Source of the DNA: Enterocloster clostridioformis
Lineage (GTDB): Bacteria; Bacillota; Clostridia; Lachnospirales; Lachnospiraceae
Direction of reading: 5' to 3'
Assembly: GCF_020297485.1 (NCBI RefSeq)
Contig: NZ_JAIWZC010000001.1
Coordinates: 1,426,001-1,490,000 of the forward strand
DNA length: 64,000 nucleotides
Below are positions 10,365 to 54,777 of this stretch, in pieces. The stretch's first letter is position 1. The number at the start of each line of letters is the position of its first letter. The position numbers were made by a program, and so were the translations under genes. Under the pieces are notes generated by a model. It made no database searches, was not told the origin of the DNA, and saw nothing but the letters and a program-made list of their open reading frames with translations.

Positions 10365-11606
10365 ATGAAGGAAAACCAAAAGGAACTTGAACAATTGATT
10401 CGGAAAGTAATGGATCAGATGGATGAAAGAAAGTATGGAAAAAAGATACTTACACATTACCATTCCAGTTACCAGCTTCTTATATCCGTATCACATGATA
10501 TAGGAGACGGCGAACTTTCAGAAAAACTTATTAAAACTTTTCTGGACATGCCTGTCATTTGCAGTGAAACATGGGTTAAAAAAGAACTGACCCATCGGAA
10601 ACGCTGCATCAGACTGCTCCTGTCCCTTGCACAGACAGGAACCATCGACTGGAGACGCCAGGACACTGGCGGCATATCCGGGAAACTTATGAATCAGGCA
10701 TTCCGGCAGGAACTGGAACACTTTGTCAGATATCTGGAACAAGAGGGGTTCAGCCCTAATACGATGTCCGGGTATAAAAGGATCGTTACTTATTTTTTGC
10801 TGTTTTGTGAGAAAAAAGGGTATGGGGAGTTATTCGATATCCGAACAAATGATGTGAGTACATTTATCCTGTCTCTTTACAAAGACGGACGGTACCGGCC
10901 ATCTACAATCGGAAGCTGTCTGGCAGGGCTGCGCAGATTCCTTTCCTCCAATAACCACACGGCACAGTTTCTCCTGGAAATACCCGTCCATCTGCCACAA
11001 GAAGTAAAGATCATGGAAATCTATAATGAAAAGGAACTTGCGGCTCTCAGATCCACACTTTCGTCAGGAATGCTGACTAAGAGGGATACCGCTATCTGCA
11101 GGCTTCTTCTGGAAACGGGGCTCCGGGGAATTGATGTCTGTTCTTTGAAGCTGAAAAACATCGACTGGGAAAGGGACTGCATCTCCATCATTCAGAATAA
11201 GACAAAGAAGGCGCTTATCCTTCCTTTAAGGGCTTCTTACGGAAATGATATCGCAGATTATATCCTGAATGAACGCCCCTTGAGCGGGTCAGACCATGTC
11301 TTTTTAAAGACTTTTGCGCCGTTTGGACATCTGGGTACGGCAAGCATTTATGAAATCCTGAAAAAACTGGAGGAACTTGCCGGGATTAAAAAAGAAGACC
11401 GACCAGTGGGGAGCCGGATGACAAGGCACCATGCCGCGTCTTCCATGCTCCGGGCAGGTATCCCCATGTCGGATATCTCGGCAGCTCTCGGTCACAGGGA
11501 CCCAAACGTTGTATCCGTATATCTTTCAACGGATGCCATAAATCTGGCAGCGTGTACGCTTCCGCTCCCTCCCGTTGTGGAAGGAGGTGTTTCAGATGCA
11601 CAGTGA
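10365..11606 (+). CDS. Tyrosine recombinase RitA-like
   Basis: The start is ATG at 10365 behind AAGGAGG; the product has 413 residues. After an N-terminal helical region, residues 110 to 200 form a SAM-like core-binding domain (LEQEGFSPNTMSGYKRIVTY). The catalytic domain shows LLETGLRGIDV (first Arg), MTRHHAASSML (second Arg), LGHRDPNVVSVYL with His and the nucleophile Tyr. The usual first His of the HxxR box appears changed. It overlaps the next gene by 11 bp, indicating translational coupling of the trio. Confidence 0.88.
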   Translation: MKENQKELEQLIRKVMDQMDERKYGKKILTHYHSSYQLLISVSHDIGDGELSEKLIKTFLDMPVICSETWVKKELTHRKRCIRLLLSLAQTGTIDWRRQDTGGISGKLMNQAFRQELEHFVRYLEQEGFSPNTMSGYKRIVTYFLLFCEKKGYGELFDIRTNDVSTFILSLYKDGRYRPSTIGSCLAGLRRFLSSNNHTAQFLLEIPVHLPQEVKIMEIYNEKELAALRSTLSSGMLTKRDTAICRLLLETGLRGIDVCSLKLKNIDWERDCISIIQNKTKKALILPLRASYGNDIADYILNERPLSGSDHVFLKTFAPFGHLGTASIYEILKKLEELAGIKKEDRPVGSRMTRHHAASSMLRAGIPMSDISAALGHRDPNVVSVYLSTDAINLAACTLPLPPVVEGGVSDAQ

Positions 11607-27842: not shown

Positions 27843-28460
27843 CTACCTCGCTTTTTCCTTTGCAGAGCGCAGTTTTTCCCTATTCTGCTCAAACTGGCTC
27901 ATAATATCTCCCTGCAGCCTGTCATGAAAATCCTTTGTCACTGGATAGCATATATCCTGATATTCCGCCTTTCCTTCAACCATGCGTCGCTGGGAAGGCA
28001 TGGCTACAAAGTTATTTCCTGCAAAAGATCGTTTGACAGAAATCTGATTGACTACAAATACATCACCAATCACCAGTCTGGCATATGCCTTAGTGGTATT
28101 GGACAAATCTCTGTTGTTTACTACTTGAACATAGTAGTCAAAATCTTCCTCCCCATAGGTGAGGTCAACTTCGTTTTTCCCTTCCACACGTTCCTGGTAC
28201 GCCTCCAGAATTTCTCCCCTTAATGCGGTACTGAAATCCGTAGTTTTTGGAAAAAACACATCACTGTATATCGGCTTATTCTGTTCATCTTTTTCCCCCG
28301 TTGGATACTGCGGCATACTCACATAAAGATTCCCTAATCTTCCCTCCCTGATAGTGATACCGGTTACTTTAAAACTGTCACCGAACGTTACCGCAGCAAA
28401 TGCTCTCAGTTTTTTATCTTTCTCTGTTGATACCTCATAAATATTTACTGTATATTTCAT
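27843..28460 (-). CDS. Tandem SpoVG-domain protein (205 aa)
   Basis: AAAGGAGACTAAGTT precedes the ATG. Two copies of the SpoVG fold are visible: LRAFAAVTFGDSFKVTGITI, GNLYVSMPQYP and YSDVFFPKTTDF; then KAYARLVIGDVFVVNQISVK, NNFVAMPSQRR and YQDICYPVTKDF. SpoVG is a single-domain nucleic-acid-binding regulator of about 95 residues. This duplicate could act as a built-in dimer that binds RNA or DNA of the element. It starts the small operon after the helicase gene. Confidence 0.82.
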   Translation of the reverse strand: MKYTVNIYEVSTEKDKKLRAFAAVTFGDSFKVTGITIREGRLGNLYVSMPQYPTGEKDEQNKPIYSDVFFPKTTDFSTALRGEILEAYQERVEGKNEVDLTYGEEDFDYYVQVVNNRDLSNTTKAYARLVIGDVFVVNQISVKRSFAGNNFVAMPSQRRMVEGKAEYQDICYPVTKDFHDRLQGDIMSQFEQNREKLRSAKEKAR

Positions 28461-28486: not shown

Positions 28487-31400
28487 CTATCTGGACAAAG
28501 CTGGTTCCGGGAGTTCTTCTGTTACTACCAGTTCTTCTCCCTCATCTTTTATCTCCAGCTCGTTATTGATTTCCTGCTGGCGGATTAGTTTTTGTTTCAA
28601 CTCCGATTCATAGGGGAATTCTTTATTAAACTCCCTTTTAGATTCCTCCATATTTCTTTTGTACTCTTCCAGTTTTTCTTTATGTGCAGCAACTCTCTTT
28701 TCCAAACTCCCCAACAGGTTCTCCATACGGACCATATTTCCGGAAGCACTGCTGCTCATATCTGCCGAATAAGTCAGCTCTCCACTCAGCTTTATGGAAC
28801 AGTCAGAATACTTTTTTTCTACCACTACATCAAACCCCTTATAGTTGCCCACTGTCCTGCTTTCCATACTTTCAAGGGAATGGGCCATCTCTAAGATAAC
28901 GCTGCCCGCCGCCTCACGTTCATCATATCTAAGGCCGTTCAGCGTAACGAAAAAGTCCGGCTCCATACAGAGTGCCTGGTCACGTTTCCTGATATCTTTT
29001 TCCATAGCGTACAATCGGTTCTCAGTCTTCTTAATCAATTCTGGATATTTGAAAAGGAAATTATCCTGATGGACATAGCGCTGGCTCTCATAGCTTGCCT
29101 TTAAGACCTGCAGACGCGAAACTTCCGTGTCCACCTCGGTTTTTTCCATAATCATAGGATTCCCAGACGCAATTGCCTTGATTTCCGCAAAAGATAAAAT
29201 GGTTTCGTCTACGTCCTGGCATTCCCTTTCAACCGTTTTGTCTGTCATTATCTGGCTGATAAACCTCTGCTTATTTTCTACAATTCCCCAAAGGTAACTG
29301 TCAAATGTCTTTTTCGTGATATAGCGATATATATTGACTTCTTCATTATCATTTCCCTGGCGTATGATACGACCCTCCCTCTGCTCAATATCCGAGGGTT
29401 TCCACGGGCAATCAATGTGATGAGCCGCGACAAGGCGTTTTTGGATATTGGTTCCTGTTCCCATCATGGACGTGCTTCCCAGGAGGATTCGTTTCCTGCC
29501 GCTCCTCATGTCTGCAAATAATTCCTCTTTCTGCTTATCACTATGGGCATCATGAATAAATGCAATTTCATCTTCTGATATTCCTTTCCTGATCAGCTCC
29601 TGTTTCAGAAAGTCATATACATTAAATTTCTTGTTTCCTGTGGGCGTGCCAATATCGCAAAAGACAGCTTGTGTCCCCTTAAACTCCTGGGAACCAATGT
29701 ATTCCTGATAAATATTCGCTGCCGCCTGAAAGAGTTTGCCGTCACCATCTACTTCCGCATCTGGGTCAATCAGCCGGGGATCTGTGCCGAGCAACCTTGC
29801 TTCGTTGGTAATCTTGAGCATGTTATCGACCGTTGGATCTACATTCCCTGCTCGTATTGCTTCCGCGCGTCCAGCCAGTTCTTGCATCATGTACTCAACA
29901 CTCTCGGACGCCACGCTCTCCACAATTTTGTATTTCCCACCTTTTAACTTAGGTACATTCAGGTTTAGCATGGAAGGCAGTTGGATATCAGCCACCTCCC
30001 GGAACATATTCATAAGTTCTGGGAGATTACAAAATTTATTAAATCGGCTCCGCATCCGGTATCCACCCTCCGGTGACATTTCCAGCGAAGTGGTAACTTC
30101 GCCAAAATTGGCCGCCCAACTGTCAAAATGGTCAATCCCCTTCTCATGTAGTTTCTGTGACTGCAGATACAACTGCATGACATACATTTCACACATGGTA
30201 TTGGAGATAGGCGTCCCGGTTGCAAGGATAACATTTCTTCCTCCGGTCAGTTCCTGGATATACTGAATCTTTTGGAACATATCCATAGCCCGCTGGGAAC
30301 CATTGGTGGAAATACCTGCCACATTACGGATTTTTGAAAAGATAGACAGGTTTTTAAACACATGCGCCTCATCTACAAACAATGCATCTATCCCTAACTG
30401 CTCAAAATCCAGCACATCATCCTTTTTTGCATCATTTCTCAGACTTAAAATTTGGGATTCCAGATTTTTCCGTTGACGCTCCATATCTTTTATCCCCCAT
30501 TTAGCCCCCTGCTGCTCCTTCATCTCCGCAATAGCCCCTGAAATTCGTTCCACCTGATTTTCAAGAATTTCCGCACGCCTTTCCGCAGACAGGGGAATTC
30601 TCTCAAATTGAGAGTGTCCCAAAATCACGGCATCATAATTATTTGCAGCAATCCTACACGTCAGTTTTCTTCTATTTTCACTTTTAAAATCTTCTTTCGA
30701 TGTCACAAGTAGATTGGCACTGGGATATAAGTGCAGGAATTCTGCCGCCATCTGCCCCACAAGATGATTCGGTACGACAATCATTGCTTTATGCATCAGC
30801 TTCAGCCGTTTCAACTCCATACAGATAGCCGCAATTTCATAGGTTTTTCCAGCCCCAACCGCATGGGCCAGCAAAGTGCTTCCATGCAGTGCCCGGTCTA
30901 CAACATTCCGTTGATGGTCCCGCATATTTATTTCCGGATTCATACCGGGGAACGATAAATAAGAACCGTCATAAACCCGCATACGGTTATCATTGAAGTT
31001 CTGATTGTAAAAATCCACATATTTTTTTCTACGCTGCGGATCTTTCCATATCCACTCCTTAAAAGCATCTTTTATGATGGTTGCCTTTTCCCTCGCCAGG
31101 GTTGTTTCTTTCTGATTTACTACATACCGTTCACTGTCCCCGACTTCAATCTTATCTTTCACGGTAATTATATTCTGGTTCAATAACGCCTCAATAATGG
31201 AATATGCATCAATCCTTTTCGTTCCATATGTCTGGCTCGCGGCAACAGAAGAATAGTCACTGGACTTATTCGTGATCTTATATGACATGGTATACCGGTT
31301 TAACTGCACCTTGATTGCATAAGTCCCGTCTCGATACAGCCCCGGCGTATTCAACGTTTCATAGATAAATGCTTCGTAATCCTCCTGGGCAATCCAAGAG

Positions 31401-34400
31401 GTTCCCAACTTCACGGTGATCTCCGTTGCCGTCAGATCCTCTGGCTGTACCGCTTTCAAGGCTTCTACATTTACCAAATAGATGGGATTAGCTTTTGCAT
31501 ACACTTCTGCAGCTTTTAGTTTTTTCCGTACTGGACCACTCAGATACTCACTTGCAGTCTCCCATCCCTGATTAGGGTTTCCATCAGCCGCTTTGACTGG
31601 GTTCAAAAATATCTGCCCTTTTAATTCCTGCAGGAGCCGTTCCCGTTCTACCGGATAGACACTCAGAATATAGGGGATATGTACCTTCCCATATTCCGCC
31701 AGGCTGACTTGCAGCGCGTCCATGGCTGTATCCACCTTCTCAACTATGGAAACTGGCGCAATAGTCTGTTTATAAAAGATATCCGCCTTCTTTATATTCT
31801 TGTTTTCATCTTCTGTCTCCAGACTGCATAACAGATAGTAGTCATTGTCCTCCCGGAATGCTAATTTGTTGGCACGGCTGGACAGATATCCGTACTTCTT
31901 TACATAAGGATCATAAATCTTATTCAGCTTTTCCTGTGCCTCAACAAGTTGAACCGTACTGCACCCATGTGTCTGAATATCAATCAGGTATCTGACCGAC
32001 TGCCGGATAGCATGCATTCCCAGGATACGATTCCGCTGCGTCTCGTTTCCCAACCATCTGACCATGATATCATTATCCCGATAATAAATTTCTCCCTCTA
32101 TGACTGTATATGTGTTATTTGCTACATCTAAGAGGGCCGGCATAGTATTGGGAAGTTCTTCCTTGCTGTTTACATCAGGGAACACCGATTTTTCCTCTGC
32201 CGGAAGATAATTGGCTGACAGAAAAGAAATAGCATGATTCAATTGTTCTTCAAAATCAAAATGTTCTTCATCTTCTACAATTAGTTCTGTATAATTGGAG
32301 TTTGGCCCATGAGTATGTCTGTCAAAAGCCATTTTTCCCAGCATCATTTCCGGATGGTGCATAAAATACTCATTCACCGGCACCCCATCATCAGTATAGG
32401 TGATATTCATCCAATCCTCAGATGTATTTGGGGACAATACCCGTCCCTTCTTTTGAAGGAAGATAATGTCGGACGTAATTTCGGCACCCGCATCCTTTTT
32501 AAAGGCAATTCCAGGTAGACGTACCGCGCCGATAAAGTTTGCACGCTCCGCCAAGTATTTTCGTATCGTGGAATTAGCTTTATCCATGGTGAATTTTGCC
32601 GTGACAACCGCGATGATTCCGCCAGGGCGAAGCAGGTCTAAGGATTTTGCCAAAAAATAGTCGTGAATGCGGAAACCATATTTTTTATATTCGGGATCAA
32701 AAATTTTGTACGCGCCGAAAGGAACATTTCCCACGATAACATCAAAGCTGTCCTTTTCAAACTTCGTCTTTTCAAATCCCTTGACTTCAATCGCAGCATG
32801 AGGGTGAAGCTGTTTTGCGATCCTTCCGCTGATACTGTCCAGTTCAACGCCATAAAGACGGGAATCCCGCATATTTTCTGGCAGGACACTATAAAAGTTC
32901 CCGACGCCCATACTGGGTTCCAAGATGGAACCATTTGTGAACCCAAACTGTTCCAATGCTTTATAAATTGACTTAGCGACAACGGGCGGCGTGTAAAATG
33001 CGGAATTAATACTTTCCCTGGCCTGCTCATATTCTTCCTCTGTCAACAGCGTCTGCAGTTCCTGATACTCGTTTGTCCAGTTTGGACTTTTAGGATTGAA
33101 TACATTAGCAAGACCTCCCCAGCCTATGTATTTGGCCAGGATATCCTGCTCCTCTGGTGTAGCCGGACGGGAGGACTGTTCCAGTTCCTTTAACAAACGG
33201 ATTGCCGCGACATTACTCTTATACTTTGTCTTATCACCGGAAGGAAATTCCCATCTTTCAGGGTAAAAAAAATCCGAAACCTGAATGACGTTTTGGTTTC
33301 GGTTACTCATTTCCTTGTATAATAGGAAGGTTTCCTCCGGGCATAAGGCAAATTCTTCTTTGCGTGCCGCTTCATATTCCCCCGGTGGGAGGTACTCTCC
33401 CACATTAATGGCCGCCTGGATTGCACGCGATACTTCCTGCATGGTAAAAGCCCCATGTCCTTCATTTTCTCCATTCACAAGGCGGAATTCAACGGCTCCA
33501 CTTTCACCATACGTGTAATGGATCAATCCCCAGCTTGTATTCAGCGCAGACTTTCCATAGTCCCGCTTAGACTGAACTTTCAAAATTTTCGAAAGAAATT
33601 CCTGCTTTTCCTTTTCCCCTGCCTGTTCAAAGAACCTTTGAATCAATGGTTTGGAGGGAATCAATGCCATGGAATGAAGGGCATATGTATTTGCAGCCTC
33701 TTCAAATACTGCCTTTAACCGTTCACTTCTTCCATCAGCCTGTGTCTCCTGTATTTCTTCTCCTGTATCCTCTGTTCCTTTGTCATCTTTCTCAATTACG
33801 GTATCGGCACTTAAATATGGTATTGTTACTGCCGGTGTCTCGCCAGCCTGTTCTAATAACCCCTGGTATTGGGACGCCAGATTTGGAAACCAGGGAATTC
33901 TTTTAATTTCCTCTACAGAGAAATCCTGGCTGGATTCAGGATATTGATCTAATTCGATTATCCGGGCCAGAATGTCCCGGATCACACGCCACGGATAGGT
34001 CTGCACCTCGTTACCATCAAAAGAACAAGTAACCTCACCATCATGGAAGGTCAGTGTTGAGGTAAATATCCAATCCATATCTGAACCAAGCAGGGAAAGA
34101 AAACTCTGCCGTATAAATTCGGTTTCCTGCTGGGGCAGTAAGTTTATGGTCATTACATCATAAATCATGTCAAATACTATCCTGCCATCTGCCGTTTTCA
34201 GGAAATTTTCTACTGTTTCGGCCAATGATTCCGGTATTTCCGCATCCTTTTTTATTGGCTGATAGTATTCCCCGCTTTCGATTAATAATAGGATTTCTTC
34301 TGCCACTATCTTAAATGGAAGATACCCACTTAGATACTGCCCCTGCTCATGCCAGTATAACTGGATTCCCGTATCATCTGTTTCATATTCAAATTCAAGT

Positions 34401-35752
34401 CCCTCACCAGTTATAATGGTGTCCCCACCTTCGTAAATCTGATAAAGAAATTCGACACGCTCCCCTATCCCTTCATTAAACTCAAAGAAATCATAGATTT
34501 TTTTCTTTAGGATAGGTTCCAGCGCACCTGCTAAAACCACTTCTCTGCATAATTCATCTGTCACTTCTACAGGCACAGACACTGGTTCAACAGAAAAAGA
34601 AGGAACCGCAACAGCAGTTCCTTCCTCTATATCAGTTTCTATTACCTCGGCTTGCAGATTACTTCCTGCATCACGGTTTCCTGGGTTATCATAGCCGCTT
34701 CGTTCCGAAGTCTGGTCATCTCCATCGTATCCGCCGATTTGATGTTCCTCTCCGCCGCTTTCATCCTCACGTAGCCCTCCACGATCTGGTCGTGCAGCTC
34801 CCACGCTTCCGCCTCTATCTGTTTCAGCAGCTCCAGCAATTTGCCCGTCCGCAACAACAGGCTGTGCCGGCTTTCGTCCTTCTCCAGCAGGTATTCCTGT
34901 GCCAGCTTCGCGTATCTGCCCAGCGTCTCCAGCCCTTCCGCCTGTTGGCTCCCTGTCTCCAGCATCGGGTATAGCAGCCCGTCCTTTTCTTTCCTGTAAT
35001 TCAGTTCTACCATCTTGATTTCTCCTTTCATCTTCCCGGATCTCTTTCGCAATCTCTGCAAATCTCCGCAACGTCCTCTCTGCAATATCCGATATGAGGA
35101 TACCTATTTGGGATAGTATCACTTCTTCCCGGTAGTTTGTTATTGCAGACAGTCCTGTATCAAAAGTATCAATCCCGCATCGCCTTAATACCAGGTATGC
35201 GGTGCTCTGCAGGATGAATTCTTCAACTGGTGACATTTGATTGTCATCCAATTCATCCTTGCCGGTAAGAACTGCTATTTCATGAATCCTGTCGTTTTCC
35301 TCTTCCATTATAGCACGCACATATGTTCTAGTAAAGTTTTTTATTGCTATCCTGAAATTATTTTCTTCCTGATATTGTTCTGGAAACAGTTTCTTTGCGA
35401 AAGCAGGAGCATTTTCTTCATTAATTTCCCATATCCAGGGCATAACCCTGCCGCCAGTGCTTTTGATATCATAGACATACTGCGCACCTCCCAGCATTTC
35501 AATAGGAAATGTTGCGATTCCAATCTCACCGCCCCTGACATAACGCTTTGCTTTCTTCCAGTCTGAAAATCCCAAGAGGATTTCTGCCTCCGGGTATTGT
35601 TCGTAAATAATGCATGTATTCAAAAAGTCAAAGCGATATAAGTTCCCCCTGGCAGAAAACTCCAGATATTTTCTCCACTGTTCACCGTCACGCGAGATAT
35701 CAAAAATTGCAATATCATACAAATCCGATACCTTCATGGTGTGCTGATCCAT
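28487..35752 (-). CDS. Giant ArdC / DNA methyltransferase / SNF2-type helicase fusion (2421 aa)
   Basis: An N-terminal ArdC-like single-strand-binding domain (LLGFSDWKKAKRYVRGGEIG) covers about residues 1 to 170. A low-complexity Gly/Arg/Asp-rich linker lies at about 240 to 375. An N6-adenine methyltransferase region follows, with ILEPSMGVGNFYSVLPENM (motif I, about 940) and DVIVGNVPFGAYK (motif IV, normally NPPF, about 1005). A superfamily 2 helicase follows: HAVGAGKTYEIAA (Walker A, about 1630), LFVDEAHVFKNL (DEAH, about 1790), ATGTPISNT and QREGRIIRQGN (motif VI, about 2125). Such proteins are carried by many Firmicutes conjugative elements, perhaps for antirestriction or entry. The linker DNA also encodes a TnpV-like protein in another frame. 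Confidence 0.9.
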   Translation of the reverse strand: MDQHTMKVSDLYDIAIFDISRDGEQWRKYLEFSARGNLYRFDFLNTCIIYEQYPEAEILLGFSDWKKAKRYVRGGEIGIATFPIEMLGGAQYVYDIKSTGGRVMPWIWEINEENAPAFAKKLFPEQYQEENNFRIAIKNFTRTYVRAIMEEENDRIHEIAVLTGKDELDDNQMSPVEEFILQSTAYLVLRRCGIDTFDTGLSAITNYREEVILSQIGILISDIAERTLRRFAEIAKEIREDERRNQDGRTELQERKGRAAIPDAGDREPTGGRAGDAGQIREAGTGIPAGEGRKPAQPVVADGQIAGAAETDRGGSVGAARPDRGGLREDESGGEEHQIGGYDGDDQTSERSGYDNPGNRDAGSNLQAEVIETDIEEGTAVAVPSFSVEPVSVPVEVTDELCREVVLAGALEPILKKKIYDFFEFNEGIGERVEFLYQIYEGGDTIITGEGLEFEYETDDTGIQLYWHEQGQYLSGYLPFKIVAEEILLLIESGEYYQPIKKDAEIPESLAETVENFLKTADGRIVFDMIYDVMTINLLPQQETEFIRQSFLSLLGSDMDWIFTSTLTFHDGEVTCSFDGNEVQTYPWRVIRDILARIIELDQYPESSQDFSVEEIKRIPWFPNLASQYQGLLEQAGETPAVTIPYLSADTVIEKDDKGTEDTGEEIQETQADGRSERLKAVFEEAANTYALHSMALIPSKPLIQRFFEQAGEKEKQEFLSKILKVQSKRDYGKSALNTSWGLIHYTYGESGAVEFRLVNGENEGHGAFTMQEVSRAIQAAINVGEYLPPGEYEAARKEEFALCPEETFLLYKEMSNRNQNVIQVSDFFYPERWEFPSGDKTKYKSNVAAIRLLKELEQSSRPATPEEQDILAKYIGWGGLANVFNPKSPNWTNEYQELQTLLTEEEYEQARESINSAFYTPPVVAKSIYKALEQFGFTNGSILEPSMGVGNFYSVLPENMRDSRLYGVELDSISGRIAKQLHPHAAIEVKGFEKTKFEKDSFDVIVGNVPFGAYKIFDPEYKKYGFRIHDYFLAKSLDLLRPGGIIAVVTAKFTMDKANSTIRKYLAERANFIGAVRLPGIAFKKDAGAEITSDIIFLQKKGRVLSPNTSEDWMNITYTDDGVPVNEYFMHHPEMMLGKMAFDRHTHGPNSNYTELIVEDEEHFDFEEQLNHAISFLSANYLPAEEKSVFPDVNSKEELPNTMPALLDVANNTYTVIEGEIYYRDNDIMVRWLGNETQRNRILGMHAIRQSVRYLIDIQTHGCSTVQLVEAQEKLNKIYDPYVKKYGYLSSRANKLAFREDNDYYLLCSLETEDENKNIKKADIFYKQTIAPVSIVEKVDTAMDALQVSLAEYGKVHIPYILSVYPVERERLLQELKGQIFLNPVKAADGNPNQGWETASEYLSGPVRKKLKAAEVYAKANPIYLVNVEALKAVQPEDLTATEITVKLGTSWIAQEDYEAFIYETLNTPGLYRDGTYAIKVQLNRYTMSYKITNKSSDYSSVAASQTYGTKRIDAYSIIEALLNQNIITVKDKIEVGDSERYVVNQKETTLAREKATIIKDAFKEWIWKDPQRRKKYVDFYNQNFNDNRMRVYDGSYLSFPGMNPEINMRDHQRNVVDRALHGSTLLAHAVGAGKTYEIAAICMELKRLKLMHKAMIVVPNHLVGQMAAEFLHLYPSANLLVTSKEDFKSENRRKLTCRIAANNYDAVILGHSQFERIPLSAERRAEILENQVERISGAIAEMKEQQGAKWGIKDMERQRKNLESQILSLRNDAKKDDVLDFEQLGIDALFVDEAHVFKNLSIFSKIRNVAGISTNGSQRAMDMFQKIQYIQELTGGRNVILATGTPISNTMCEMYVMQLYLQSQKLHEKGIDHFDSWAANFGEVTTSLEMSPEGGYRMRSRFNKFCNLPELMNMFREVADIQLPSMLNLNVPKLKGGKYKIVESVASESVEYMMQELAGRAEAIRAGNVDPTVDNMLKITNEARLLGTDPRLIDPDAEVDGDGKLFQAAANIYQEYIGSQEFKGTQAVFCDIGTPTGNKKFNVYDFLKQELIRKGISEDEIAFIHDAHSDKQKEELFADMRSGRKRILLGSTSMMGTGTNIQKRLVAAHHIDCPWKPSDIEQREGRIIRQGNDNEEVNIYRYITKKTFDSYLWGIVENKQRFISQIMTDKTVERECQDVDETILSFAEIKAIASGNPMIMEKTEVDTEVSRLQVLKASYESQRYVHQDNFLFKYPELIKKTENRLYAMEKDIRKRDQALCMEPDFFVTLNGLRYDEREAAGSVILEMAHSLESMESRTVGNYKGFDVVVEKKYSDCSIKLSGELTYSADMSSSASGNMVRMENLLGSLEKRVAAHKEKLEEYKRNMEESKREFNKEFPYESELKQKLIRQQEINNELEIKDEGEELVVTEELPEPALSR
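34642..35013 (-). CDS. tnpV: TnpV-like protein encoded inside the helicase linker in another frame
   Basis: The ATG at 35013 is preceded by AAAGGAG with 8 nt spacing, a full ribosome site inside the larger gene. The 123-residue product matches the TnpV pattern: LYPMLETG, LGRYAKLAQEYLLE, LLLRTGKLLELLKQIEAEA and a helical end NIKSADTMEMTRLRNEAAMI. Transposon protein TnpV is known from Tn4451-type elements, role unclear. The overlapped stretch of the large protein is its low-complexity linker, which fits overprinting of the linker by a real gene. Confidence 0.7.
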   Translation of the reverse strand: MVELNYRKEKDGLLYPMLETGSQQAEGLETLGRYAKLAQEYLLEKDESRHSLLLRTGKLLELLKQIEAEAWELHDQIVEGYVRMKAAERNIKSADTMEMTRLRNEAAMITQETVMQEVICKPR

Positions 35753-40607: not shown

Positions 40608-41313
40608 GCCGATTCCCTCCTGTCTTATCTTTTATATGGATATTGTACCGTATTTTTTGCTTTTATTCAATGCATATATGAAAGCCTGTTATCTGGCCTG
40701 CTTTCGTTCCTTTGGATTTTGTACCCCGTGCTGTACCGGTTCAAGAATCTTCACTTCTGGCATCAGTCGTTTGATATCCTCAATTGCTTTCTGTACCAAT
40801 GGGCTGTCACGATAATATGGGATAGAGTTGATAATATCCACATCCAGCCGGTTTGCTGACACCAGATCAAAATCACCGGTATAGATAGAATCATCGTCCT
40901 TGATTGTGAATCCAATCCCATTCCCCATGCACGCCAATTCTTCCGGCAGATTCCTGTATCGCTTCACAGCTTGTTCCAAGCTCCTGCACTGATACACTTT
41001 CCCTAACGAGGGAAACTCCATACATTCCGCCACGTAAAATGATATTGTGGGTATCGACTTCTTTCCATACTCGGCTCTGTTTTCTGCAGCTATTTCATTA
41101 TATATTTTCTTCCCATCGGGCATCATATTCGCCTCCTTCATACTTAAATAGGTCCCCCTTCCTAATATAATGTGATCCAACACAGTGATACCAATCAGTT
41201 CTCCACAAGCCACAAGCCTTTCAGTCACTAAAACATCCTGTTTGGAAGGTGTACAGTCCCCTGATGGATGATTATGCATTAATACAACACTGGCTGCATT
41301 GGAAAGGATACTA

Positions 41314-42682
41314 GTACAGCATTGCCAAAATAATAATGAATAGACGTTGCTTTTTTATTGTAGTCGGTGCATAATAATTCTATCACTAAAGAATGGATGG
41401 GTTATTATGCGAAGGAAAACAATTGATACTATCCCGGTTTTATCTGATGCCATGAAAAACATATTATCTGCTTTTTCAAAAAGCCGCTCCCTTCCGTCAG
41501 GACTGGTCAAAAGAGCCAGCATTGTCCTGCTTGCGTCACAGGGGGAACTCAACCAGAATATTGCACCACAGGTCGGGCTTCATTATAATAATGTTGCCAC
41601 CTGGCGCAGTCGGTTCCTCGCGGCGCTCCCAGCCTTGCGGAGGATTGAAATGGACGACCCGGAAAAGCTTGAAGATGAGATACGGGCAGTCCTCTCCGAT
41701 AAAAAACGCCCCGGTGCCCCGTCTGTTTTTACGCCGGACCAGATCAGGCGGATCATCGGCCTTGCCTGCAGCAGCCCAAATGATTTTGGGTACGAAGTAA
41801 GCCAGTGGAGCCTCCCGCTGTTAGTGGCAGAAATTAAAAAGCAGGGGATCGCTGAACAGATTTCTGAGAAATCTGTCAGCCGTTTTTTAAAAATGAGGTA
41901 GATTTACATCCCCACAGAATCCGTTACTGGCTTCATTCTTCGGAAAAGACGGAAGCCCCGGAATCTTTTGCGCGGAAAGTAAACGAAATCTGCGGCCTGT
42001 ACCAGAGTGCCCAGGAACAAAGCCGGGAAGGTGCACACATTGTTTCCACGGATGAAATGACCGGGGTACAGGCGCTGGAACATAAATATCCTGACAAGCT
42101 CCCATTACCCGGCCAGTGCGCCAAAATGGAGTTTGAGTATATCCGCCATGGCACGACCAGCCTCATCGGGTTCTTTGATGTTGCAACGGGCCGTATGGAA
42201 ATGCCGTATTTAAACTCCACACGCACAGAAGAGGATTTTGTGGAAGCCGTGAAAGCATTGGTAAGGACAGACCCGCAAGCCCCATGGACATTTATATGCG
42301 ATGGCCTAAACACCCATAAGTCGGAAACCCTTGTCCGCTATGTGGCAGAAGCCTGTGCCCTTGGCGTGGAACTGGGCAAAAAAGGGAAAACAGGGATCCT
42401 TAAAAGTATGGAAAGCCGGGCGGATTTCCTGCATGACCCTTCCCACCGGATCCGCTTTGTCTATACTCCGAAACACAGTTCCTGGATGAACCAGATTGAG
42501 ATATGGTTTGGCATCATTAACCGGAAGCTGCTGAAGCGGAAAAGCTGCCTATCAATAGAAGAACTGGAAGCAAGCATCCTGCGCTTTATTGAACAATACA
42601 ATCTTACAGCACACCCATTTAAGTGGACATATGCCGGGATACCATTAGTAATTTAATCACTGATATTTAAGCAACACTGTAC
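41314..42682 (+). mobile_element. IS630-family insertion sequence, complete (1369 bp)
   Basis: The ends GTACAGCATTGCC and the complement of GGTAAC-type right end (GTACAGTGTTGCT read inward) form imperfect inverted repeats. TA is duplicated at 41312..41313 and 42683..42684, both inside CTAG, the known IS630 target. The element interrupts the RadC-like gene, and its removal restores that frame. A second, slightly diverged copy starts at 63117 in the same direction. Confidence 0.9.
41407..42656 (+). CDS. IS630-family transposase, two frames joined by a minus-one shift
   Basis: The first frame runs from ATG 41407 to 41901 (164 aa) with an N-terminal helix-turn-helix (SRSLPSGLVKRASIVLLASQ). The second frame continues VDLHPHRIRYWLHSSEK to 42656 with the DDE residues in IVSTDEMTGVQ (Asp), FICDGLNTHKSE (Asp) and SSWMNQIEIWFG (Glu). 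A slippery heptamer T TTA AAA lies in the first frame at 41886..41892, just before its stop, so the full transposase is probably made by programmed minus-one frameshifting. Confidence 0.87.
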
Positions 42683-51869: not shown

Positions 51870-54777
51870 TTAAGATTCTTGATGGCCGGTCAGTTGTTCG
51901 CGTATTTCACGCATTTGTCCGGCACTTTTATCTGATTTAAAGTAAGTCAATATATCCTGGTAGGAAAGACCTCCTACCAATCCAAGACGTATTTCTTCTA
52001 ACTGCTCTAATGTATAATCATTATTTATTAGCATTTCATTAAACTGCTCTTCTGTAATCTGTCCCAAATCCTGCTTTTCTATATTCTCGATTTCAGTTAT
52101 TTTGCGGTTCTTTTTCAGTTCATCTTCTGAAAATATCTTTGCCGGCATATCAGGTTCCTGCAATGACAGCAATTCGTCCAGTGTTATTTCATCTATCTGA
52201 ACATTCAGCCCCTGGTCCCTCTGGCGTTCATAATATTCAAAAGACTGCCGGTTCAGTAATTCGCAGGTTGGCACTGTACTTTTCTCACGGATTGGTGTAT
52301 GATGATATGGTGGTGCGCCTCCATCAAACGTCTCCTTGAAAAGAGGATGCGCCGGGGTATTGTATTTTGAATCTACAATCGGGTCAAATCCCCGGATAAA
52401 GATCAGGCACTTTTTATTATCCAGCTTTCTGGCCTCATCCGGTGTCAGTAGTTCCCTTCCCAGCACATCAAAGTTTCGGCTGCTGCTGCCATTTTTTCCT
52501 CTTGTTTCACCAGAACTCCGCTTATCTACCGTAGCCTTCCCGAGAATCTTAGAAATATAATCGTGTGTACTCTGTTCATTCCCGCCAAGGTAGACCAAAG
52601 TGTCACAGTTCCCTGGGATGACCTCCCATGTCTTTTCAAACAATGCTTTAATCTGCGCAAGGTTCTGTATAATAATGATCGATGAAATTTCTCGTGACCT
52701 CATGGTACTAAGTAAACCGCAATAATCATCCGGTAATGCAAATGGCAATAGGTAAACCTCTGGCACTGCCGCCTCGGGTTTTTCCCCTGCCCCGCACCGT
52801 GCATGATAGTTTCCCATCACACGGCGCTCCCCCGACTAAGAACATAATCTCTTAGTATCGGCTTGAGGCTATCCCTCCACCGCTTATTATCACGGTTTCC
52901 CTGGTACTGTGCCTCTACTCTCACAACCACTAATGCACTTATTATAGAAGTTTTTCTCCCCCTTCCTTTTCGCTGCAACTACGGTACTTTGTCGCTGATA
53001 CAGTCAGCTCCCGTATTGGCTGCTTTCCACGTTCCACATAACTTAGGATTGCTACCACTTAGGCCGCTCCTTTAGCCCTGCAAGCATTATCTTCAAGGTA
53101 AATCCTCAAGATACCTATACCCTATAAGCACAGAAGGCATTTCATACTAACAAATTTTACTTTGCCCCGCCTGCGTACCCCTGGTACACCTGCATTTCTA
53201 CAGGCTATTTGTTTAGAGCCGTACATTCGGAACTTTGTCAGACCTCCTTTGGGTCATTCTAGCCATATGGCAGCCCCACCCGCACTGTCACACACAACTC
53301 ATACCTCTATGAATCTTTCCTCGCCTTTCAGCGTTAGGGTGTGCTTCGCACGACTTCCCCGCGCTTATAACCCCAACCATCTGTATCTGGCTGACGCTAC
53401 GTGGAGTATCAGTGAATCCCCTTCCGGGCGTTACCCCATCATTTGAGATTTCAGTTATGCAGTTCTCCAAAGCCATTCATGGCTTTAGGCTGCGGTTTTG
53501 TCGGTTATTTCCACCGTTTTGGACGCAGAACGTGTCACACCATTAGCAAACTCATCAAGCATAAAGGTCACATGGATTGGTAATCTTCCTTCGTAAATAA
53601 AGTCAGCCTGGAAGTACAGTTCCTGGAATATCTGGCTGTAAAGCAGCCCTACAATGCTGTTGAACGATTTATCGGAATCCGGAATCACACAAAAAAGAGC
53701 TGTTTTTGTCTTTCCGTCACCATTTCTTCCCACCCCTATCTCCGGGATATTGATATCATCATGGTCCAGGATACGGAGGATTTGTGGATTTTCCAAAAAA
53801 GCCAGTCTGGAATTTGCACTGATAACAATACTCCGGACCGTATCAGCCGCTCCTCTGATTACTTTATAATACTGTTTGACTGCTGGATGATTGCTGCCCT
53901 TTTTACGCTCCAGGCGCTTAATCCTGCGGTCTAAGTCCGATGGCGAGCCATCATCACGTACCTCTGCTTCTCCCAGTAATTTCAGTACCGTGGAAAAGTT
54001 CTGTTCACTTTTGGGGCATTCCAGCCAAACATAGTAGAACAGCGCCTGCAGGTATAGCGACTCTGCTTTCTCCCAGAAGGGATCGCTGCTCTGGGAGTTT
54101 TTCGGGGTTGTATTGGCGATCAGGTTTGTAATTAATTTTACGACATCTGATTCCTTCCGGATATACATAAATGGATTATAGCAGTCAGACTCTTCCATGT
54201 TCAGCAGATTCAGGACTTTGACAACATAACCGTGTTTCTGTAAGAATCCCCCGCAGGCTTTTAAAATTTCCCCTTTCGGGTCAGTGATTATATAAGAAGA
54301 ACGGTTAAGCTGTAACAAATTAGGCTTACAAAAGAAGAAACTCTTTCCCGCTCCACTTCCCCCGATGACCAAAGTATTCAAGTTCAGCTTCGTTTTACGC
54401 GAATCCATCCTCATACGGACATTTTGGCTTAGTATGCGGTTCTCTGTCTCGTCCTTCTCGGCTAACACCTGATTCACCTGTTTGATATCTGCAAATTTGG
54501 CTGTACCATATTCTTTTCCCGGCATATAGTTTTTTCTGCTGGTCAGATACATGGCAATCGCAATCATATATACGAATTCTGCTAGTAATATCCCCTTAAA
54601 AGTTGTATCATTGAAGTAATTTCCAAATGGGCGGGCCATAACCATGTTAAGACGCTCCATAAAGGTATTGATATCAATCCCCTGTTCCCAGATGCCATTA
54701 AGAAGATACCCGCCATATGCCGCCAGCACACCACCAAGTACAATCAGCCAGACAGAAGTTTTTTTCTTATTTTCCAT
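51870..54777 (-). CDS. virD4: VirD4/TraG type IV coupling protein, split by a group II intron
   Basis: Exon 1 (54777 to 53541) has two N-terminal helices, Walker A LVIGGSGAGKSFFFCKPN and Walker B at the end, VTFMLDEFAN. Exon 2 (52741 to 51870) resumes ALPDDYCGLLSTMRSREISS and STHDYISKILGKATVD. Splicing at the intron ends predicted here gives 2109 bp, 703 codons, and joins DEFAN-V-ALP without gap. Function: ATPase that brings the relaxase-DNA complex to the channel. The C-terminal 60 residues contain an EEIRLGLVGGLSYQDI motif shared with the 56430..57401 protein. Confidence 0.92.
52742..53540 (-). mobile_element. ORF-less group II intron (799 nt) in virD4
   Basis: The minus strand begins GTGTGACACG (consensus GUGYG) at 53540 and ends in CCAT (AY) at 52742. 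Domain V is visible at 52829..52794: a stem GCGCCGTG/CACGGTGC with an internal bulge, an upper stem and a GAAA loop (GATGGGAAACTATC). A domain VI-like hairpin follows (GGGGAAAAACCC, CAGAGGTTTACC). No ORF long enough for an intron-encoded reverse transcriptase exists in 799 nt, so splicing would need an enzyme from elsewhere. Confidence 0.88.

Follow-up and report, generated by a model that had tools for sequence, protein, structure and literature searches.

In Bacillus subtilis, the small regulatory gene comS lies inside srfAB, out of frame and on the same strand as its giant host gene. Among mobile elements, a gene product of Tn6104 has been described as 48% identical to TnpV of Tn4451, for which a role in excision was postulated from similarity to lambda Xis (PMC3158075). 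According to a review, no directionality factor is needed for the recombinase of Tn4451 to work (PMC5704250). In integrative conjugative elements of Streptococcus suis, mobilizable elements carrying tnpV have been found inserted in snf2, and tnpV is described there as their cargo (PMC9815147). The ArdC-N domain, in turn, has been proposed as the N-terminal header of polyvalent proteins, protecting the incoming DNA of conjugative elements (PMC5512222); the main text of that study mentions neither TnpV nor overlap. No description of an overlap between tnpV and a helicase gene was found in the literature searched. Here we describe such an overlap. Sequence comparisons make it very probable that tnpV is a genuine coding gene, lying on the same strand but in a different frame within the gene of an ArdC-like/methylase/SNF2 polyvalent protein of a conjugative element.

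The window (i.e., the whole stretch of 64,000 nucleotides from Enterocloster clostridioformis that was analyzed) encodes on its minus strand a protein of 2421 residues (28487..35752) that matches the PHROG family of DarB-like antirestriction proteins at 1552 bits and provides the host frame of tnpV. Several enzyme domains were identified on this one polypeptide with Pfam models (Eco57I, SNF2-rel_dom, ResIII, and Helicase_C), all over their cut-offs. These are, all on the minus strand, an adenine methylase domain of the Eco57I type (residues 991-1073, 32534..32782; PF07669 at 35 bits, cut-off 25.3), an SNF2/ResIII helicase domain (residues 1608-1803, 30344..30931; PF04851 at 32.1 bits and PF00176 at 35.9 bits), and a helicase C-terminal domain (residues 2055-2133, 29354..29590; PF00271 at 36.7 bits, cut-off 23.5). 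The first 245 residues (35016..35752, minus strand) form an N-terminal domain, represented by our profile A4, which we call ArdC-like. The Pfam ArdcN model scores 15 bits against it, below the cut-off of 22.6, and matches five of the 21 members of the profile at E-values up to 0.1; many related plasmid proteins carry the RefSeq name "ArdC-like ssDNA-binding".

Ten proteins of the window were searched, and conjugation genes were found to surround the helicase gene, with matches to a relaxase, parts of a type IV secretion system coupling protein, a TraG P-loop domain, and NlpC/P60; a serine recombinase was also among them. The coupling protein is represented by two open reading frames (51870-52820 and 53485-54777) corresponding to the C- and N-terminal parts of one Pfam family, as if it had been interrupted. 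A RadC-like frame (40689-41279) matches only positions 70-120 of a 121-position profile and is followed by frames judged by eye to be transposase-like (41347-42656). The gene after the helicase (27843-28460) encodes a protein of 205 residues with two SpoVG-like stretches.

The earlier note on this DNA, made from the letters alone, had reported an open reading frame of 123 codons with a TnpV-like pattern in another frame of the larger gene, preceded by a ribosome site. Its coordinates, length, ATG, and ribosome site all proved correct, and the strand, which it had left unnamed, is the minus strand for both genes. Specifically, the frame runs from an ATG at 35013 down to 34642 (34642..35013), and the ribosome site GAAAGGAG (35022..35029, minus strand) stands 8 nt before the ATG. 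The search of Pfam that had been proposed as a check confirmed the product as TnpV. The PF14198 alignment takes in residues 8-119 and positions 3-111 of the model, almost its full length, and scores 67.5 bits (E-value 1.2e-18), well above the curated cut-off of 27. The ATG lies at offset 739 of the helicase gene (1 modulo 3), so that tnpV spans helicase residues 247 to 371, approximately. This stretch (34642..35013, minus strand) is the linker of the helicase, which shares its DNA with tnpV.

The arrangement recurs widely among relatives. From all loci fetched we collected 194 distinct TnpV sequences covering at least 95 model positions and free of masked bases, and called nested those contained in full within a second open frame that is on the same strand and exceeds 200 codons. 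By this definition 129 were nested and the remaining 65 standalone, a proportion that is not a frequency since most of the loci were collected through TnpV searches. All 129 nested copies lie in frame +2 and none in frame +1. In 127 of them the same open reading frame also contains the ArdC-like domain; the two exceptions are a copy cut by a contig end (L122) and one in which a serine recombinase frame runs through TnpV (L140). Profile A4 and TnpV were each searched over 398 genomes of the window's phylum, which we took as one set (their handles agree). Above 100 bits the profile yielded 24 matches, including two from the genome of the window itself. By arithmetic on the coordinates, all 24 are followed at a distance of up to about 210 nt by the start of a TnpV match, always in the same relative frame, although the profile was built solely from nested helicases and such proportions are not frequencies. 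Twenty-three of these TnpV matches exceed the Pfam cut-off, and the other (G086) scores 25.5 bits. Two weaker profile matches sit in proteins of more than 2300 residues. One (G089) has a TnpV at 30.6 bits; in the other (G205, locus L200), whose N-terminal match covers half the domain at 51.6-55.5 bits, no TnpV was detectable. The other weaker matches, mostly to the first 80-110 residues and in shorter frames, had no adjoining TnpV match in the 398-genome search.

Loci with a nested copy also come from Paenibacillus, Thermotalea, and Desulfosporosinus, and distant plasmids extend this distribution. TnpV exceeds the Pfam cut-off in Listeria (L210, 29.0 bits), Enterococcus (L211, 33.3 bits; its host gene is cut short), Virgibacillus (L173, 76.3 bits), and Selenomonas (L214, 67.0 bits); it falls below in Anaerococcus (L208, 24.9 bits), and a Streptococcus agalactiae plasmid copy (L209, 15.9 bits, also below) is too diverged to call. 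Of the 14 plasmid records examined, ten contain the nested pair and come with a gene table, and none of these ten tables, which are incomplete and omit pseudogenes, lists both genes in full. Only the host gene is listed in four (L173, L208, L210, and the shortened L211), TnpV without a full-length helicase in another four (L172, L175, L213, and L214), and neither gene in two (L209 and L215). The host frame is broken in L213 and L215.

The signals for internal initiation are conserved among nested copies. The motif GAAAGGA stands exactly at -16 from the TnpV start in 95 of 127 copies, a count subject to a mild bias since the scripts that chose the start were partly weighted by the ribosome site; in a smaller, earlier set it occurred at this position in 70 of 96 nested versus 2 of 57 standalone copies. 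Identity is 83-92% across columns -16 to -10, whereas in the neighboring columns it is mostly 30-60%. In the helicase frame the motif reads Glu-Arg, and the Arg codon is AGG in 102 of 106 cases, whereas farther upstream in these genes AGG accounts for 316 of 2368 Arg codons. This preference for a codon that is much less used upstream indicates that nucleotides are conserved and not residues alone. The internal ribosome site is thus conserved even against the codon preference of the helicase. Internal sequences resembling ribosome sites can also stimulate ribosomal frameshifting, as in dnaX and prfB. Thus GAAAGGAG could in principle be a stimulator by which ribosomes slip from the helicase frame and produce an ArdC-like/TnpV fusion, and the TnpV frame is indeed often open before the ATG (median 54 nt). 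However, in 39 of 127 nested copies the last 30 nt before the ATG contain a stop in the TnpV frame. Only 15 of 127 have an in-phase slippery heptamer or a run of A6/T6 in the shared stretch, in varying places, and the start codon is ATG in 125 of 127. We therefore consider frameshifting very unlikely and independent initiation at the internal site the better reading.

The linker itself has an unusual composition, which the earlier note had described as low-complexity and rich in Gly, Arg, and Asp, as would be expected if another frame dictated it. Our count agrees, with 21% Gly, 13% Ala, 10% Arg, and 10% Asp in the window, and Met, Phe, Trp, and Cys absent from its linker. The further idea that the overlap explains why the linkers of homologues look odd is borne out by the 127 nested copies that share one frame with the same N-terminal domain. 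When the linker protein of the window was held fixed and its synonymous codons were shuffled 5000 times, the TnpV frame was open in 0.5% of the shuffles, so that its openness exceeds what chance would give. In the reverse and weaker test, with TnpV fixed, the helicase frame was open in 15% of 5000 shuffles, so its openness in the window alone is not striking. Comparison among loci is the stronger argument against chance.

Comparison of the two frames among homologues revealed where selection acts. In 37 pairs, with each sequence used once, amino acid identity was higher in TnpV than in the linker in every pair, and the pooled single-frame dN/dS was 0.24 for TnpV versus 1.59 for the linker, against 0.19 for the upstream part of the helicase where it could be aligned; single-pair linker ratios fell below 1 in five of the 37 (0.64-0.98). 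We also applied our own simplified version of a two-frame method modeled on OLGenie (PMC7531306) to 42 pairs. The ratio for TnpV (dNN/dSN) was 0.22 (0.19-0.25) and that for the helicase frame (dNN/dNS) 1.06 (0.94-1.21), a type of ratio which, according to the source of the method, overestimates dN/dS in same-strand overlaps, while dSN/dSS was 0.83 (0.52-1.37) from few sites. The window and a 76%-identical relative in genome G482 (L217) follow the same pattern as the 42 pairs. The 65 sites that are silent only in TnpV hold 32 differences, versus 23.5 for the 172 sites that change both frames and 11 for the 86 that are silent only in the helicase. Neither the single-frame nor the two-frame comparison, over 37 and 42 pairs, respectively, detected purifying selection on linker residues. 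Some constraint on the linker may nevertheless exist, given the overestimation noted for such ratios (PMC7531306), the five single-pair linker ratios below 1, the dSN/dSS of 0.83, and the lower silent divergence of TnpV (0.32) than of the upstream helicase part (0.45). The note's comparison of the two frames thus came out in favor of TnpV, and its proposal that TnpV dictates the linker stands with a refinement. Since the helicase linker is the frame in which no amino acid constraint is detectable, the helicase would be the gene that reads through tnpV. The detection of purifying selection on TnpV only, together with the conserved internal site, argues that tnpV is a real nested gene, of which the linker is a nearly neutral shadow cast in the other frame.

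If the linker residues matter so little, the giant protein might not be made through the overlap at all, with tnpV the only real gene there and the ArdC-like and enzyme parts made as separate products. The lack of detectable purifying selection on the linker speaks for this reading, and two loci point the same way: in Lutispora thermophila (L084; 7166-8041, 8001-8339, and 8045-14629) one stop in the helicase frame falls within the overlap with tnpV intact, and the RefSeq helicase of the Selenomonas plasmid (L214) begins after TnpV. The nested copies as a group, however, avoid codon choices that would make stops. The equivalent frame of 57 standalone tnpV copies contains 6.1 stops on average, with one copy at zero, versus none in the 129 nested copies, where this follows from the definition. 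Likewise, where a TnpV codon with a pyrimidine in third position precedes AA, AG, or GA, that pyrimidine is T in 0 of 1439 nested versus 416 of 903 standalone cases; the zero is again a consequence of how "nested" was defined, and the informative part is the contrast with the standalone copies, i.e., the number of sites avoided. A frame that was never read would not be kept open in this way, which makes separate products highly improbable. The helicase frame is instead, by the pattern of these codon choices, kept open across the overlap, with residues under no detectable purifying selection. In our preferred reading, ribosomes would initiate at the internal site to give a separate, small, mostly helical TnpV protein, and ribosomes in the long frame would make of the same DNA a flexible tether joining the ArdC-like header to the enzyme domains.

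The history of the two genes was approached through their distances. Those of TnpV and of the N-terminal domain are strongly correlated over 121 loci (Mantel 0.88, with 0 of 999 permutations as high), which indicates that the two travel together. In a tree, unrooted and based on few columns, the standalone groups fall among the nested ones with 16 changes. A second, standalone tnpV was observed to interrupt or abut the 3' part of the same helicase gene in five loci (L037 at 11094-11465, L003, L164, L153, and L168), four of which (L037, L153, L164, and L168) have both a nested and a standalone copy; the standalone copies of L153 and L168 are accompanied by a serine recombinase. Elements carrying tnpV do insert in snf2 genes, as four of these loci (L003, L164, L168, and L153) and the S. 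suis elements (PMC9815147) attest, and the nested frame might be the relic of one such insertion in the helicase gene, left open by chance or composition. The 15% of shuffles in which the helicase frame stays open with TnpV given would be compatible with this. However, the inserted or abutting tnpV of those four loci lies in the 3' part of the helicase and not in the linker, and the nested TnpV is under strong purifying selection, occurs in one frame only, and is co-inherited with its host gene. The relic reading is thus already contradicted, and we regard it as the least credible of the alternatives.

As to origin, we consider it plausible, if somewhat short of probable, that the overlap goes back to the loss of the stop of an upstream ardC-like gene, which then came to be read through tnpV into a downstream helicase gene. 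In L140 (6074-8467), tnpV is traversed by the serine recombinase frame with the same relative offset that the helicase frame has at other loci, and in near relatives (L132, L147, L150, and L152) the recombinase ends 26 nt before tnpV; this is possibly a picture of how read-through overlaps arise. The stop in Lutispora suggests that the nested parts can also separate again.

What TnpV does is a guess, since the AlphaFold model (two short, low-confidence strands and five helices) had no convincing match when compared with solved and viral structures. Because ArdC-N proteins are thought to protect incoming DNA, we tentatively propose, with low confidence, that TnpV has an accessory part in transferring, recombining, or establishing the element's DNA and is made alongside the antirestriction protein from the same message. 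A bolder version, which we regard as rather unlikely, would make tnpV the obligate hidden partner of the ArdC-like/methylase/SNF2 protein across mobile elements of Firmicutes. One mRNA would then yield a giant antirestriction protein with a neutral tether as its linker and a TnpV that regulates or completes it, and mobilizable elements inserting in snf2 would bring a tnpV of their own that replaces this function or takes it over.

These results give a Pfam family named after a transposon a different setting, with 129 of 194 distinct collected copies concealed within a second open frame, which in all but two cases can be shown to begin with an ArdC-like domain. They also provide a clear example from bacteria of an inner gene that would dictate a domain linker in the other frame, the outer frame being mainly constrained to stay open. 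The nested tnpV would account for the Gly/Arg/Asp-rich linkers of these antirestriction proteins, and TnpV becomes a concrete candidate partner for a class of DNA-protection proteins.

Nested genes are of a known kind, and what seems unusual here is the wide spread, the folded family, and the apparently near-complete freedom of the outer-frame residues. On the one hand, comS inside srfAB is a gene for a short peptide with a narrow distribution; nested tnpV, in contrast, belongs to a folded family and occurs in many genera. On the other hand, each described mobile system shares a part of the arrangement. TnpV of Tn4451 belongs to the same family (PF14198) as the nested TnpV, but that tnpV belongs to a serine-recombinase element, with its excision role only postulated (PMC3158075), whereas the copy described here sits within a helicase gene. 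The snf2 elements of S. suis likewise bring tnpV and snf2 together in one locus, where tnpV is described as cargo and is not nested in snf2 itself (PMC9815147). Finally, the polyvalent proteins described with ArdC-N and SNF2 domains (PMC5512222) resemble the host protein of tnpV in architecture, and it too is encoded among conjugation genes.
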